From Nitrospirota bacterium (GTDB lineage: Bacteria; Nitrospirota; Nitrospiria; Nitrospirales; Nitrospiraceae), in contig JACRLR010000016.1 of NCBI GenBank assembly GCA_016219645.1, forward strand, positions 372,001 to 436,000: DNA of 64,000 bases, read 5' to 3'. Below the pieces are notes generated by a model. That model saw only the letters and a program-made list of their open reading frames with translations, was not told the origin of the DNA and made no database searches. Position 1 is the first letter of the stretch. Every line of letters begins with the position of its first letter. Below are positions 3,148 to 51,160 of this stretch, one piece after another. The translations under genes were made by a program, and so were the position numbers.

Positions 3148-4287
3148 ATGTTGAAGCAGTACTTGCTGGCCCCCGGCCCGACACCTGTACCACCAGAGGT
3201 TCTGTTGGCCATGGCGCGGCCCATGTTCCACCATCGTGCCCCTGAATTCGACAAGGTCTTTGCAGATGTCCGTGACGGACTTAAATGGCTGTTCCAAACA
3301 AAAAGCAACGTACTCATGCTGGCGGCTTCCGGTACCGGAGGCATGGAAGGTTCAGTGTCTAATTTTCTTTCTCCCGGTGACAAGGCTCTCACGATCAATG
3401 GGGGAAAATTCGGCGAACGATGGACAAAGCTCTGCAAGACGTTCGGGGCCGAGGTGACTGAAATCAAGGTGGAATGGGGGCGAGCCGTCAATCCTCAAGC
3501 GGTGGCCGATGCGTTGAAAAAAGATCCAGGGATCAAAGCGGTGTATGTGCAAGCGAGTGAAACGTCTACCGGTGTGGCGCATGACGTCAAGGCTCTTGCG
3601 GAGATCGTGAGACACTATAGCGATACCATACTTGTAGTGGATGCGATCACCGCCCTCGGAGTGTTCGACATCAAGACTGATGAGTGGGGGGTCGATGTCG
3701 TGGTCACCGGGTCGCAGAAGGCGCTGATGCTTCCGCCTGGCCTGGCATTTGTGAGCGTGAGCGATAAGGCCTGGAAATTGGCAGAAAAGGTAAAGAACAC
3801 GGCCTTCTATTTCAATTTCAAGAAAGAACAGGAGAATCAGCTGAAGAATCAGACAGCCTATACACCGGGCGTGTCTCTCATCGTCGGTTTGCAGGAAGTC
3901 CTGAAGATGATGAAGGCGGAGGGGCTTGCGGGGCTCTTCGGTCGCCAGGCCATACTTGCGAAGGCGATGCGCGAAGGGATACAGGGCGCCGGTTTGGCGT
4001 TGTTTCCCAAAGAGTCGCCCAGCGATGCCCTCACGGCTATTTCAGCGCCGGAAGGGGTTGACGGCCAGGCCATCTATAAAAACTTGCGCGTTCAGTACGG
4101 TATTACCGCGGCCGGTGGGCAAGACCATTTGAAGGGTAAAATTTTCCGGCTTTCTCACATGGGCTACATGGACCGGTTCGATATCATCATGGCGGTTGCA
4201 GCTGTCGAAATGGTGCTCAAAGGGTTGGGCCATCCTGTGAAACTTGGCAGCGGTGTCGCGAAGGCGCAGGAAATTCTAATGGCCTAG
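3148..4287 (+). CDS. Class-V aminotransferase (serine/alanine-glyoxylate type)
   Basis: PLP enzyme of 379 residues from the serine-pyruvate / alanine-glyoxylate aminotransferase family, starting with the typical LLAPGPTPVPPEV. The cofactor-binding Asp is D165 in VVDAITALG and the Schiff-base lysine is K191 in TGSQKALMLPPGL. SGTGGMEG (about 61-68) is the phosphate-binding loop. A strong AGGAGG lies 8 bases before the ATG. serA begins 41 bases after the stop, so the pair probably makes serine: SerA oxidises 3-phosphoglycerate and this enzyme may act as the transaminase. Direct phosphoserine activity is inference; glyoxylate/serine exchange is the alternative. Confidence 0.88.
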   Translation: MLKQYLLAPGPTPVPPEVLLAMARPMFHHRAPEFDKVFADVRDGLKWLFQTKSNVLMLAASGTGGMEGSVSNFLSPGDKALTINGGKFGERWTKLCKTFGAEVTEIKVEWGRAVNPQAVADALKKDPGIKAVYVQASETSTGVAHDVKALAEIVRHYSDTILVVDAITALGVFDIKTDEWGVDVVVTGSQKALMLPPGLAFVSVSDKAWKLAEKVKNTAFYFNFKKEQENQLKNQTAYTPGVSLIVGLQEVLKMMKAEGLAGLFGRQAILAKAMREGIQGAGLALFPKESPSDALTAISAPEGVDGQAIYKNLRVQYGITAAGGQDHLKGKIFRLSHMGYMDRFDIIMAVAAVEMVLKGLGHPVKLGSGVAKAQEILMA

Positions 4288-4328
4288 GGGTGGCGTCTCA
4301 AAGCTCTTACGATGATAAGGCAGGCACA

Positions 4329-5918
4329 ATGGGCATGAAAATTCTCATCAGCGATAGTTTGTCAAAGCAGGGCGTGGAACTGTTGGAGAAGGCTGGATTC
4401 ACCGTGGTTGTGAAATCCAAGATGCCGAAGGACGAGCTGTTCAGGGAAATCAAGGACGCAGATGGACTGATCGTACGGTCCGGCACCAAGGTGACGGAAG
4501 AACTGATTGCGGTGGCCGAGAAGTTGAAAGTCGTCGGGCGAGCCGGGTCAGGGCTGGATAATGTCGATACTCCTGCGGCTACCCGTCGGGGCATCGTGGT
4601 CATGAATACGCCGGGCGGAAATACGGTCACGACAGCTGAACACACGATGTCGATGATCTGTGCGATGAGCCGAAGGATCCCCCAGGCGACGGCCTCGGTC
4701 AAGGCAGGCAAGTGGGAAAAAGACAAGTTCATGGGAGTTGAACTCTATAATAAGGTGCTTGGTATTGTCGGTGTAGGGCAGATCGGCAGCCATCTGACGA
4801 AGCTAGCACAGGGAATCGGCATGAGCGTGATCGCCTACGATCCCTATTTGGCCGAAGAGCGCGCAGAGAAGATGGGCGTCAATATGATGCCGTTGGCTGA
4901 ACTCTTCACGCGCGCCGATATCATCTCTGTCCACACGCCCTTGACGCCTGAGACCAAGGGCCTGATCAATGCGCAAATGATCTCGACGATGAAGCCGGGT
5001 GTCATGATTGTAAATTGTGCCCGCGGGGGAATTATTCACGAGGGAGATCTGTTTGAAGCGTTGAAGGTCAAGCGCGTGGCCGCCGCCGCATTCGACGTGT
5101 TTGAAGAAGAGCCAGTAAAGGCGGACCATCCGTTGTTGACCTTGGACAACTTTATTTGTACGCCGCACATTGGAGCTCAGACGACTGAGGCGCAAGAGAA
5201 TGTGGCCATCGGGATTGCGGAGCAGATCGTCGACTATTTCACGAAAGGTATTGCCAGGGGAGCGGTCAATATTCCGTCTGTCTCTCCGGAGCTATTGCCG
5301 AGGCTTCAGCCCTATCTGTCATTAGCCGAGCAGCTTGGGAAGATGCAAACTCAGTTGTGCGAAGGCGGGATTGAACGAGTGACCGTAGAGTACAGCGGAG
5401 AGGTGGCAAGTTTGTCAATCGCGCCACTCACAATCGCCGTACTGAAGGGATTGCTGACACCGGTGATGGAATCGCCTGTGAACTATGTGAATGCGCCGAT
5501 TGTTGCGAAAGAACGTGGTATTGAAGTGAAGGAAGTAAAGAGTTCCGATGCGGGAGATTTTACCAGCTTAATCCGTGTACAAGTGGAGGCTGGGAAGAAG
5601 TCGCACCAGGTGGCCGGCACGCTGTATCACAAGAAAGACCCGCGCGTTGTCCAGATCGATCAGTTCAAAGTTGAGGTTGTGCCGGAAGGACACATGCTCC
5701 TGATTCTAAACATTGATCGCCCGGGTGTGATCGGGATGGTGGGGAAGGTACTCGGCGACAGCCAGATCAACATCGTCCGGATGCAATGCGCGCTCGAGAA
5801 GCGGGGAGGGAACGCGTTGCTCATCATTGGATCCGATGCGATCTTTCCTGAGGCGGTGCTTGAGGCGATCAAATCCAGCAGGGATATTCTTTCAGTCAAA
5901 GTCGCGGTTCTGTCTTAA
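4329..5918 (+). CDS. serA: D-3-phosphoglycerate dehydrogenase
   Basis: First step of serine synthesis, NAD-dependent oxidation of 3-phosphoglycerate. The 529 residues fit the long form of the enzyme. The Rossmann motif is GIVGVGQIGSH (about 145-154). The catalytic Arg is in NCARGGI, the Glu in FEEEP and the His in CTPHIGAQTTEAQ. An intervening ASB domain (about 325-440) and a C-terminal ACT domain starting near HMLLILNIDRPGVIGMVG would bind serine for feedback control. The frame extends to a GTG at 4290, but ATG 4329 has AAGG eight bases upstream and matches the family start MGMKILISD. Confidence 0.95.
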   Translation: MGMKILISDSLSKQGVELLEKAGFTVVVKSKMPKDELFREIKDADGLIVRSGTKVTEELIAVAEKLKVVGRAGSGLDNVDTPAATRRGIVVMNTPGGNTVTTAEHTMSMICAMSRRIPQATASVKAGKWEKDKFMGVELYNKVLGIVGVGQIGSHLTKLAQGIGMSVIAYDPYLAEERAEKMGVNMMPLAELFTRADIISVHTPLTPETKGLINAQMISTMKPGVMIVNCARGGIIHEGDLFEALKVKRVAAAAFDVFEEEPVKADHPLLTLDNFICTPHIGAQTTEAQENVAIGIAEQIVDYFTKGIARGAVNIPSVSPELLPRLQPYLSLAEQLGKMQTQLCEGGIERVTVEYSGEVASLSIAPLTIAVLKGLLTPVMESPVNYVNAPIVAKERGIEVKEVKSSDAGDFTSLIRVQVEAGKKSHQVAGTLYHKKDPRVVQIDQFKVEVVPEGHMLLILNIDRPGVIGMVGKVLGDSQINIVRMQCALEKRGGNALLIIGSDAIFPEAVLEAIKSSRDILSVKVAVLS

Positions 5919-13793: not shown

Positions 13794-14551
13794 AAGTCTT
13801 GTCGATCGCTCTGAATACCTTTCGGGAAAATTTACGAGACAAGTTGCTCTACAACCTGCTTGTGTTTGCCTTGCTCATGATCGGCAGTTCCGTGGTCTTG
13901 TCACGGTTGACTCTGGGGGAGTTCCACCGTCTCATACTGGATATCGGACTCGGGAGCATCAATTTTTTCGGGGTCTTGATCGCCATTTTTGTCGGGATCG
14001 GACTGGTGAGTAAGGAGATCGAGAAGAAAACCATCTATACGATTGTGTCGAAGCCGGTGGCCCGTTACCAATTTCTGCTCGGAAAGTACCTGGGCCTCTC
14101 AATTACCTTGTTCGTCAACACGGTGGTGATGGCACTGGGGCTGTTGGTGGTGCTCTACGCCCAAGGAGTTCCCGTTGAGGGGATGCTCTTTAAGGCACTG
14201 GCGCTTATTTTCATTGAGTTCATGGTCATTACTGCGGTGGCGTTACTGTTTTCGACCTTTACCAGTGCCACCCTGAGTGCCATCTTTACCCTGGCCCTGT
14301 ATGTGATTGGGCATCTTACCGCGGATCTGAAAGTGTTCGGGGCAAAAATGGATGATCTCACCAGGGGAATCTTGGACGGAATTTACTATCTCTTGCCCAA
14401 CCTCGAGCGGTTCAACTTGAAGGGTCATGTCGTGCACCACCTCGACGTCGGCGGTTCGGACCTATTGCTGATTGTCGCCTACGGAGCGACCTACACAGCG
14501 GTTCTGCTCTTTACAGCCAGCCTGATCTTTCATCGACGAGATTTCCGCTAG
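13790..14551 (+). CDS. ABC-2 type transporter permease (PilI-like position)
   Basis: Polytopic inner-membrane protein of 253 residues with about six hydrophobic segments. Notable ones are near 20-42 (LLYNLLVFALLMIGSSVVLS), 55-70, 105-125, 140-165, 170-185 and the C-terminal 225-247. The amphipathic ISKEIEKKTIYTIVSKP-like stretch near 72-88 is typical of NatB/CcmB-type exporters. The ATGA overlap with the ATPase gene implies coupled expression and a shared complex. Likely the membrane half of the exporter in the pilin cluster. Confidence 0.88.
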   Translation: MKVLSIALNTFRENLRDKLLYNLLVFALLMIGSSVVLSRLTLGEFHRLILDIGLGSINFFGVLIAIFVGIGLVSKEIEKKTIYTIVSKPVARYQFLLGKYLGLSITLFVNTVVMALGLLVVLYAQGVPVEGMLFKALALIFIEFMVITAVALLFSTFTSATLSAIFTLALYVIGHLTADLKVFGAKMDDLTRGILDGIYYLLPNLERFNLKGHVVHHLDVGGSDLLLIVAYGATYTAVLLFTASLIFHRRDFR

Positions 14552-14664
14552 CCAGCTCCAGATTCTCTACTTGCATTATGCCGAGGGGCAGGGTATTGAA
14601 GAGAGTACCGCGCCTGTACCACTGGTCATTTGGGTGTTGAAATTCATACTGGAGAACAGCATCG

Positions 14665-15783
14665 ATGAATGTGCCATTGCTTGATTTGAAAGCTCAGTTT
14701 CAGCCCATTCGGGCGGAGGTTTTCGCCGCGATGCAGGCTGTCTGTGACGAGCAAGGCTTTGTGTTGGGGCCGCGCGTCTTGGCGTTCGAGGAAGCCATTG
14801 CCAGATACATCGGGTGTGGCTATGCGGTCGGCTGTGCCTCGGGAAGCGATGCGTTGTTGCTCTCTCTGATGGCCATGGGGGTGAAGGCCGGGGATGAAGT
14901 CATTACCATCCCGTTTACATTTTTTGCTACGGCAGGCGCTGTGTCGCGATTGGGCGCGAAACCGGTGTTTGTGGACATTCAGCCTGATTCATACAACATC
15001 GATTCCGAGTTGATTGAGAATGCGATCACGTCTCGCACAAAGGCGATCATTCCCGTGCACCTCTTCGGGCAATGTGCGGACATGGCCGCGATCAATGAAA
15101 TAGCGAAGCGGAAAGAAGTTCGCGTTATCGAGGATGCCTGCCAAGCCATTGGGGCGGCACAGCAGGGGAACCGCGCAGGCGTATTGGGTGACACCGGGTG
15201 CTTTAGCTTTTTCCCCACCAAGAATTTAGGAGGTTTCGGCGATGGAGGGTTGATTACAACCAACGACCAAACCCTTGCAGACTCTATGGCCATGCTCCGT
15301 GTTCACGGGAGTCAGGTTCGGTATCTCCACGAAGCAGTAGGAATCAATAGTCGGTTGGATGCGCTCCAGGCTGCCATACTCCAAATCAAATTGAAGTATC
15401 TTGACCAGTGGACTGAGGGACGACGTCGGAATGCTGAACGGTATCAGCAATTGTTTGCCCGGACGAAGCATGCGGATCGCGTCAGGCTTCCATCCACGAT
15501 GCCAGGGAATTTTCACGTCTATAACCAATTCACCGTGCGAGCACCGAAGCGCGACGAGTTGCGTGCCTTTCTCAAAGAAAAGGGGGTCGGCACGGAGGTG
15601 TACTATCCGCTCCCGATGCATCTCCAAAACTGCTACAGAGATTTAGGGCACCAGAAGGGGGCCTTCCCGCAGTCAGAACAGGCGGCTGATGAAGTCATGT
15701 CACTTCCAATTTATCCGGAATTGACCGAAACGCAGCAGGCCTACGTGGTTGAGATGATTGCGGAGTTCTATCAGCGCGCGTAG
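14665..15783 (+). CDS. DegT/DnrJ/EryC1/StrS family sugar aminotransferase
   Basis: PLP enzyme of 372 residues that aminates nucleotide-linked keto sugars for surface polysaccharides. Hallmarks are VPLLDLKAQFQPIR at the start, the cofactor loop ASGSDALLLSLMAMG, PFTFFATAGAVSRLGAKPVF, VIEDACQAIGA with the PLP Asp, and the Schiff-base lysine in FFPTKNLGGFGDGGLI. C-terminal substrate motifs such as VYNQFTVRAP and EVYYPLPMHLQ are also family-typical. GGAGAACAGC precedes the ATG. No dehydratase or glycosyltransferase is adjacent, so the exact sugar cannot be named. Confidence 0.9.
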   Translation: MNVPLLDLKAQFQPIRAEVFAAMQAVCDEQGFVLGPRVLAFEEAIARYIGCGYAVGCASGSDALLLSLMAMGVKAGDEVITIPFTFFATAGAVSRLGAKPVFVDIQPDSYNIDSELIENAITSRTKAIIPVHLFGQCADMAAINEIAKRKEVRVIEDACQAIGAAQQGNRAGVLGDTGCFSFFPTKNLGGFGDGGLITTNDQTLADSMAMLRVHGSQVRYLHEAVGINSRLDALQAAILQIKLKYLDQWTEGRRRNAERYQQLFARTKHADRVRLPSTMPGNFHVYNQFTVRAPKRDELRAFLKEKGVGTEVYYPLPMHLQNCYRDLGHQKGAFPQSEQAADEVMSLPIYPELTETQQAYVVEMIAEFYQRA

Positions 15784-15808
15784 CAGGATGCTGAGAAAGT
15801 CCGCCAGC
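15783..15808 (+). repeat. class C repeat, left end only
   Basis: AGCAGGATGCTGAGAAAGTC and following bases match the left terminus of the full class C elements at 27505 and 19589. The right end is missing; a class A hairpin begins 13 bases later, which may have replaced it. Confidence 0.6.
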
Positions 15809-15820
15809 AGAAGATTGCCG

Positions 15821-15900
15821 TTATTTGGTTTATTTGGTTTGTTTGGTTTGTTTCGTTTGTTTGGTTAAGCAAGACAAACCAGATGAACCAGATCAATCTG
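15821..15900. repeat. class A hairpin repeat
   Basis: The left arm (15821-15867) is built of near-repeats of TTTGGTTTG/TTTGGTTTA with a period of nine. The right arm (15871-15900, ACAAACCAGATGAACCAGAT) is a partial complement. It sits in the gap before the protease gene and could act as a weak terminator or structured leader. Confidence 0.7.
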
Positions 15901-15944
15901 CCCCGCCAGTCTCGCTCGGCTATCCTGTTAGAAAGAAGGAGCCC

Positions 15945-16952
15945 ATGATGAAAGCGCTGACCTGGGGAACCTTGTTTGTACTCTCCTTGATATGGGGTAC
16001 GGAGGCTATCGGCAAGGAGTTATCCCCTCGGGAGATTTACGAACAGGCCTCTCCATCCGTAGTGATGGTGATGGGCTATGCGGATGGCGGCAGGAAGGGG
16101 AGCGGAGGAACCGGTTCAATCATTCAGTCGGATGGACTGGTTCTCACCAATGCCCATGTTGTGATCGAAGAGCAGACGGGAAAACCATTCCCTCGACTGT
16201 CCGTGTTTCTGAAGCCGGCCCGGGTTACGGGAGAGTCATCGAGCGATCTTTCCCGTATGCTCCGTGCCAAGGTCGTGGCCTATTCACAACCATTGGATCT
16301 AGCCTTGCTGAAACTTGATGGCATGAGCGAACGGCTGCCTGTCGTCGATGTGAGTGAATCGGGACGGGCCAGGATCGGGGATCGAGTGGTGGCCATCGGT
16401 CATCCAGAGCAGGGCGGACTGTGGACCCTCACTACTGGAGTGATCAGCGCGGAAGTCGATAATTTTAATGGTGTAAAGGGCAAGCACGTGTTTCAGACCG
16501 AGACGGGACTGAACCGTGGAAATTCAGGTGGCCCCCTCTTGGATGGAGAAGGTCGAATGATCGGAGTCAATACTGCAATTGCCCGTGTTGCGTCGGATGG
16601 CCTTCCGATCATGAGCATCAGTTTTGCCCTCAAGTCGAGCGTCGCTGGCCAGTGGTTGCGGGAGCAAGGCGTGGGGGCAGAGAGGCAGGGAGGGGGTAAG
16701 GGGGTAAGGGGGGGGAATCGAATAGATCAGACAGACCTGATCGACCAACCGGCTCAGTCAGTGCAGCCACAAGTCAAACCAGCCCAGCCTCATCAGTCTG
16801 ACTTGCAACTCAAGCAGATGGTGAAACCGGATGCGGCCCAGCCAGCGCCGCGTCCATATAACCTCGATCAGTTGATCAGCGATCGTGCGAGAGCGGAAGC
16901 CGACCTCGACAGCATGATGTCGGAAATGCGTGGACGGATGAAGGGGCGGTAG
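15945..16952 (+). CDS. Secreted trypsin-like serine protease (S1C/HtrA-like core)
   Basis: Periplasmic protease of 335 residues with a signal peptide ending near EAIGKE. The catalytic triad is visible: H71 in VLTNAHVV, D118 in PLDLALLKL and S194 in RGNSGGPLL. There is no PDZ domain. The protease core ends near residue 240 and is followed by an unusual linker (about 243-300) whose DNA (about 16670-16790) is G-rich and then resembles class A repeat units, and by a helical tail. The long upstream frame is translated repeat DNA; ATG 15945 has AAGGAG before it and starts the signal peptide. Likely an envelope quality-control or processing protease. Confidence 0.88.
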   Translation: MMKALTWGTLFVLSLIWGTEAIGKELSPREIYEQASPSVVMVMGYADGGRKGSGGTGSIIQSDGLVLTNAHVVIEEQTGKPFPRLSVFLKPARVTGESSSDLSRMLRAKVVAYSQPLDLALLKLDGMSERLPVVDVSESGRARIGDRVVAIGHPEQGGLWTLTTGVISAEVDNFNGVKGKHVFQTETGLNRGNSGGPLLDGEGRMIGVNTAIARVASDGLPIMSISFALKSSVAGQWLREQGVGAERQGGGKGVRGGNRIDQTDLIDQPAQSVQPQVKPAQPHQSDLQLKQMVKPDAAQPAPRPYNLDQLISDRARAEADLDSMMSEMRGRMKGR

Positions 16953-50263: not shown

Positions 50264-51160
50264 TCATAGATCGCCCTCTTTCAGACAGCGCCCGAATCCC
50301 TGTTGCTCGGCAAAGTAATAAGCATAATGCAGGGCTGCCAGATTCGCGACTCGTTCTTCCGCCTCTTCCCGATTATCCGTGTAGACGATCGTGAGCCCAT
50401 ATCGCGCCGTCAGTGCATCCAGGAAATCCGTCATGCCGTTCTTGTGGTATTGATTGAGGCGCCCTCCGGCTTTGCGGTGCTGGAGCGTCCCCTCAATGAC
50501 AAGAAAGCGGGAGGGAAAGGCCAGGAGTTGTTCAAGTTCATGAAGAAAGGGCAAGCGATTGTCGGAGGGATTCGAATAGATCGTGGAAAGCACCTCCACG
50601 CCAATACATTTGATGCAGAGGAGTTCGGGTGTTTCGGCAATGGCATAGCTGCCGGCTGAGAGAGGCTCTCGAATGACTCCGGCGATGCGGACGAACCCGT
50701 GGAAGTCGTAGGGGAAATGCTCTCGAGGATCGACGTAGAGATGAATGGCCGGCACCATGGTTGTCGGCTGACCCTGCCGGGAGAGCATAATGAGCGATTG
50801 GGGGCCGCGAGGGTCCTGGGGGGATCGTGGCCTCTGTTGAGGACGTGACGTTGTGGAGGAGTAGGATTCAGAAGATGGGCCTGTTGCAGGGGATGGGCGG
50901 GGCGGCGGCCCGTGGGAGGCCGATGACTGTATCTTGGCATCGTAGCTGGTGCGTGCGACCGGGTCGCTGAGGGTTTGATAGGCCTGGTTGATTAGTTGTG
51001 TCCTGGCTTCCGCCTTGCGGTGCAATGTCGGCGCATGATTGAAGCGATCCGGATGCCAGACCTGAATCTGCTCATGCCAGGCTTTTTTGATGTCAGCATC
51101 CGTTGCGGTGGGCAAGAGTTCGAGAAGCGTATAATAGTTGGTCGTTCGTTCTTCCCGCAC
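50264..51160 (-). CDS. J-domain protein fused to an ERCC4-like nuclease fold
   Basis: A protein of 298 residues. Residues ~7-75 are a J domain with HPD (QVWHPDRFNH), which should stimulate an Hsp70. A Pro/Ser/Gln-rich linker (about 80-130) leads to a C-terminal domain with the ERCC4 order: VDPREHFPYDF, EPLSAGSYAIAETPELL, FLHELEQLLAFPSRFLVIEG and YTDNREEAEERVANLAAL. Where active ERCC4 nucleases have E-R-K after the GDY motif, this protein reads C-I-K, so catalytic activity is doubtful. The combination of J domain and ERCC4-like domain is unusual. Convergent with the gene at 49847. Confidence 0.8.
   Translation of the reverse strand: MREERTTNYYTLLELLPTATDADIKKAWHEQIQVWHPDRFNHAPTLHRKAEARTQLINQAYQTLSDPVARTSYDAKIQSSASHGPPPRPSPATGPSSESYSSTTSRPQQRPRSPQDPRGPQSLIMLSRQGQPTTMVPAIHLYVDPREHFPYDFHGFVRIAGVIREPLSAGSYAIAETPELLCIKCIGVEVLSTIYSNPSDNRLPFLHELEQLLAFPSRFLVIEGTLQHRKAGGRLNQYHKNGMTDFLDALTARYGLTIVYTDNREEAEERVANLAALHYAYYFAEQQGFGRCLKEGDL

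Follow-up and report, generated by a model that had tools for sequence, protein, structure and literature searches.

A J-domain protein of Nitrospiraceae with a degenerate XPF/ERCC4 nuclease domain, a candidate adaptor of DnaK

Introduction

The XPF/MUS81/ERCC1/FANCM family proper is characterized by a tandem helix-hairpin-helix that follows the nuclease domain. Archaeal XPF and Hef carry an intact GDXnERKX3D motif together with HhH2, and the stand-alone ERCC4-type nucleases, among them PHROG 3490 and a Rhodoferax plasmid protein, also keep GD and ERK intact; neither group has a J domain. In eukaryotes, inactive ERCC4 proteins usually act as the partner of an active ERCC4 subunit. ERCC1 has the active nuclease XPF as its partner; FANCM, which combines a helicase, HhH2 and a C-terminal pseudonuclease, forms heterodimers. 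In ERCC1 the ERK residues are replaced by LFL, and the same region binds XPA (PMC6320978). FANCM reads CDXnERRX3E and is inactive, and the nuclease domains of FANCM-FAAP24 show no detectable DNA binding (PMC3905867).

Class C J-domain proteins join an HPD-containing J domain to an unrelated module. In the open literature that we searched, neither a fusion of a J domain to an ERCC4 domain nor a class C member with an ERCC4 module is described. Here we analyse such a fusion, picked out beforehand from the letters alone (the sequence-only reading) in a 64,000-nt stretch of a Nitrospirota genome, referred to below as the window.

Results

The open reading frame named in the sequence-only reading is correct to the nucleotide and lies on the minus strand (Table 1); a consensus scan found no promoter or terminator signal for it. 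The N-terminal HPD J domain, claimed earlier, was recovered by Pfam with E = 1.2e-15. DnaJ and ERCC4 are the only Pfam families matched, and a zinc finger and a DnaJ C-terminal domain are absent. By its J domain and HPD motif the protein would be a class C J-domain protein that may stimulate DnaK. The window's genome has two HSP70 genes, each matched over nearly the full length, together with eight J-domain matches. On G000:C21, a second HSP70 gene (14255-16003) adjoins a J-domain match (16390-16596), separate from the HSP70/J pair at C16:266 kb. Structure prediction for the full-length protein was of low confidence (pLDDT 57.9), and the arrangement of its domains is therefore left without interpretation.

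Table 1. Features of the J-ERCC4 fusion gene, in positions of the window
Feature	Position	Strand	Basis or remark
J-ERCC4 fusion gene	50264..51160	-	298 aa, GTG start at 51160, stop at 50264; homologs found
J domain, aa 8-74	50939..51139	-	Pfam PF00226, 57.8 bits
HPD motif, H36-P37-D38	51047..51055	-	invariant, 28 full-length homologs
Pro/Ser/Arg-rich linker, ~aa 78-134, basic, predicted disordered	50759..50929	-	pLDDT ~30, net charge ~+6, omega 0.31
Degenerate ERCC4 (XPF-type nuclease) domain, aa 135-298	50267..50758	-	AF2 pLDDT 85.7; VIA-align Z 15.8 to XPF
V-D-P-R-E motif, aa 143-147, largely retained	50720..50734	-	alignment of relatives
G-S-Y replacing catalytic G-D-Y, aa 170-172	50645..50653	-	alignment of relatives
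K-C-I replacing catalytic E-R-K, aa 184-186	50603..50611	-	ungapped alignment vs VERKR / VERRR relatives

The C-terminal half had been assigned to ERCC4 by its motif order, and these motifs (VDPREHFP, GSY, LHELEQ, LVIEG and REEAEERVANL) are all present. In Pfam the window protein scores 20.9 bits at aa 206-273, under the ERCC4 cut-off of 24 bits. Relatives with the same fusion, 57-84% identical to it over the ERCC4 domain, exceed this cut-off (L070 37.2, L057 39.2 and L040 44.5 bits), as does the stand-alone protein L081 (53.3 bits). PHROG 3490, annotated as 'ERCC4-type nuclease', matches the window protein weakly, while L070 and the stand-alone proteins match the NCBIfam Hef nuclease model far under its equivalog cut-off. 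A phmmer search of PDB sequences with the ERCC4 domain gave chance matches only, and homology to ERCC4 therefore rests on the profiles of the relatives and on the fold; read by itself, the window protein would not pass as an ERCC4 protein.

The fold was predicted with AlphaFold2 from 30 aligned relatives (pTM 0.81; Table 1). In a Foldseek search with this domain model, the best 31 matches were all chains of XPF, Hef, ERCC1, MUS81-EME1, FANCM/FAAP24 or Zip2-Spo16. VIA-align placed the archaeal nucleases highest, with Z of 15.8 for Aeropyrum XPF and 15.5 for Hef, followed by FANCM (13.9) and ERCC1 (13.6); MUS81 was matched as well, and unrelated chains gave Z <=7. Against XPF, 132 residues superposed at 2.9 A. 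The predicted model thus agrees with the ERCC4 fold claimed for the C-terminal half, a claim that a mismatch of this fold would have overturned according to the sequence-only reading, and the claimed fusion to a J domain recurs in relatives. Unlike the family proper, the window protein has no Pfam match to HhH and stops at the ERCC4 domain: in the predicted model a single helix follows the last strand, and then comes the C-terminus. A C-terminal stretch, H-x-x-Y ... R-x-L, is shared with the stand-alone ERCC4-type nucleases (PHROG 3490, L081-L083 and the Rhodoferax plasmid protein).

The sequence-only reading gave the catalytic triad as C-I-K, which proved to be wrong. When the window protein was set against intact relatives, EIFCVERRRVEEF aligned over ELLCIKCIGVEVL without a gap, fixing the E-R-K columns as K184-C185-I186; the C and I named earlier are the two residues preceding the motif. 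Since the alignment is ungapped through the motif between the window clade and the intact fusion members, the columns are clear. The same reading had listed AGSY, which is indeed there, and had passed without comment over the loss of the first acidic ligand at this place (GD to GS, 170-171). The window protein reads GS...KCIX3V and departs from the canonical GDXnERKX3D.

Its relatives form a graded series. Stand-alone cousins have GDY...(I/L)ERKX3D; a small fusion clade (L068, L070-L072, L075 and L076) has GDY...VERKX3E; and a larger one, the ERR clade, has GDY...VERRX3E. VLRK is found in L040, L041 and L063, and VVRK in L056. In the 28 members of the window clade, mostly GS, SG, GG or GN stand before Y, followed by (I/V)K-x-(I/L/M). 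None of the 28 retains the catalytic Glu or Lys, and only L031 still has the GD Asp, in keeping with the earlier guess of a domain 'perhaps catalytically dead'. By motif, the ERR clade (GDXnERRX3E) matches inactive FANCM, with the same K-to-R and D-to-E changes, and the window clade has degraded further.

On a tree with the stand-alone ERK proteins as outgroup, the window clade was supported at 100/100. The catalytic residues changed in four lineages or more: Glu became Lys in the window clade and Leu or Val elsewhere, and Lys became Arg twice, once in the large clade and once in L069. Support for the deep forks was weak (80-95), so the changes to Leu and to Val may go back to one origin. This pattern implies an ancestral ERK state of the family. 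The small fusion clade with GD and ERK could still cut (though its X3D is E), and the original role of the family may be nucleolytic.

Judged by its motif, the window protein is probably not a catalytic XPF-type nuclease. It is improbable that it still cuts with catalytic residues that have migrated within a PD-(D/E)XK-like fold (D144, E165, E176, K184 and E189, for example), under regulation by the J domain. In its favour, the window clade keeps these five with little or no variation, and one fusion clade retains GD and ERK. Against it, the canonical motif has lost its Lys and the residues of both metal-ligand columns, and column 171 may be G, S, N or D within the window clade, as for a site released from constraint.

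A scan of genome contigs found 34 loci, all in Nitrospirota except one labelled Gaiellales. The latter, L041, comes from an Actinomycetota bin, and its contig has several 70-76% DNA matches to Nitrospiraceae; we judged it to be probably mis-binned. The ERCC4 domain is carried by 85 of 175 Nitrospiraceae genomes (60 of the 114 of good quality), nearly always as a single chromosomal copy. About half of the genomes lack the gene, so it is not indispensable to Nitrospiraceae as a whole. When 295 genomes were drawn evenly from the phylum, only two outside Nitrospiraceae had matches, all of them stand-alone proteins of ~200 aa; the intact stand-alone cousins are 28-31% identical to the window's ERCC4 domain. 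Where the N-terminus is readable a J domain is almost always attached, the exceptions being contig edges or different or truncated N-termini (L017, L029 and L036). Two IMG/VR scans returned no viral relatives, and tblastn of phages and plasmids matched nothing but ERCC4 proteins that stand alone and J domains that are unrelated, nowhere with 80% of the fusion covered.

Several loci are irregular. L059 (~4001-4646, minus strand), like L038, appears frameshifted into two overlapping ORFs, so that broken copies exist. L084 (4001-4168) is a fragment of an ERCC4 C-terminus (97-aa ORF) in a genome, G085, that also has a full copy. G263 has two near-identical stand-alone ERCC4 genes (L081 and L082), and an ORF adjoining one of them resembles a transposase. 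Finally, the intact stand-alone gene L083 (G217:C32) adjoins, by eye, a UvrD-like helicase gene and another gene.

The genome counts bear on the possibility that the inactive J-ERCC4 protein is one subunit of an ERCC1/XPF-like heterodimer, paired with an active ERCC4 nuclease of the same cell. Eukaryotic precedent favours such an arrangement. However, a Pfam ERCC4 search of the window's genome found only J-ERCC4 and no second ERCC4 protein, and nearly all Nitrospiraceae genomes have one match each, which makes this reading very unlikely.

Substitution patterns were compared by Nei-Gojobori estimates of omega, as medians per clade and domain. The window clade gave 0.091 (ERCC4 domain) and 0.086 (J domain), with precision limited by saturation (pS ~0.58); the corresponding values of the ERR clade were 0.085 and 0.095. 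The linker of the window clade evolves faster than either domain (Table 1). Close pairs, the window protein against L009-L011, agree with the low omega (dS 0.38-0.50, dN 0.02-0.06). As omega in the clade without the motif equals that in the ERR clade, the window-clade protein is maintained: it is kept by purifying selection after loss of the motif, and is not decaying. The idea that the gene is decaying and its altered active site reflects drift is thereby largely refuted for the window clade, and we consider it the least probable of all. Occasional broken copies (the L059/L038 frameshift and the extra fragment L084) and the patchy presence across Nitrospiraceae would fit decay, but omega is ~0.09 in both domains of the motif-less clade and the frame is open, without stops, in nearly all members of the family. 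Furthermore, twelve ERCC4-domain positions are fixed differently in the window clade than in the ERR and ERK clades, including Q165E, E184K, G236N and F254Y. These clade-specific residues (E165, K184, N236, Y254 and others) suggest a re-purposed site.

The sequence-only reading proposed a DNA-binding or repair factor, and DNA binding finds weak support here. With the exception of one sequence, every fusion group has an acidic ERCC4 domain. The window clade is the extreme (mean net charge -6.4, pI 5.5); it has lost basic residues at 186, 187, 204 and 207 and has gained K184 and a fixed R/K at 229. HhH2 is missing, and the neighbours are not evident repair genes. The flanking genes of many relatives encode a SpoU/TrmL-type methyltransferase, a TPR protein and, named by eye, a large Tex-like and a GalE-like protein. 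Members of genus g3 often have an AAA ATPase gene (520 aa) on the downstream side of J-ERCC4, as in L057 (4585-6144). We found neither a conserved operon partner nor an evident repair gene among the J-ERCC4 neighbours, which are chromosomal genes without an evident functional partner.

The acidity and the lost basic residues make it less likely that the ERCC4 domain targets naked DNA. A J-protein directed to DNA structures, in which the inactive domain and the basic linker bind branched or nicked DNA and DnaK remodels the nucleoprotein complexes there, is nonetheless the least unlikely of the alternatives, if still an unlikely one. The ancestral fold is that of a DNA nuclease, V-D-x-R-E is largely conserved, the linker could add DNA binding through its charge, and the stand-alone cousin L083 has its helicase neighbour. 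Set against these are the pI of the window-clade domain, the basic residues lost from it, the missing HhH2 and the FANCM-FAAP24 precedent of nuclease domains without detectable DNA binding.

Discussion

The reading that we favour, with a probability of roughly 0.5, is that of a class C J-protein that uses a pseudonuclease module to choose the target of DnaK. The N-terminal J domain would recruit and stimulate DnaK. From it, a flexible basic linker would lead to a domain of XPF/ERCC4 nuclease origin, which in the window lineage has presumably stopped cutting DNA. This domain would serve as a recognition module, possibly also for dimerisation, and would steer DnaK to one particular target. Given its acidity and the basic residues lost around the old motif, we consider a protein likelier than naked DNA as that target; the XPA-binding site of ERCC1 offers a parallel.

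Set beside the described systems, the protein is like class C J-domain proteins in its HPD J domain joined to an unrelated module, and like ERCC1 and the FANCM pseudonuclease in an ERCC4 fold, which in ERCC1 has likewise lost its catalytic residues. It differs from FANCM, with its helicase and HhH2, in having a J domain and no HhH2 and in reading K-C-I in its own clade; from ERCC1, whose partner is an active nuclease, in that the Pfam search of the window's genome detected no other ERCC4 protein; and from archaeal XPF and Hef and the stand-alone nucleases in its J domain and altered motif. Tentatively, bacteria may have reached the FANCM/ERCC1 solution independently: an XPF-type nuclease captured by a J domain and repeatedly disarmed would have become an Hsp70 adaptor. 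Its former active site, with a fixed Lys for the catalytic Glu, would form a new pocket for a ligand or protein, through which DnaK is brought to a DNA-maintenance complex. We regard this as possible, at clearly lower odds than the general reading.

Two well-studied modules, the J domain and ERCC4, are here brought together in a combination absent from the literature searched. The natural series GD/ERK, ERR, LRK, VRK and KxI within one bacterial family indicates that an XPF-type site was lost several times while the protein was kept, and it makes the role of pseudonucleases after cutting has stopped testable in bacteria. In Nitrospira-type bacteria, J-ERCC4 would be a lead to a client pathway of DnaK.
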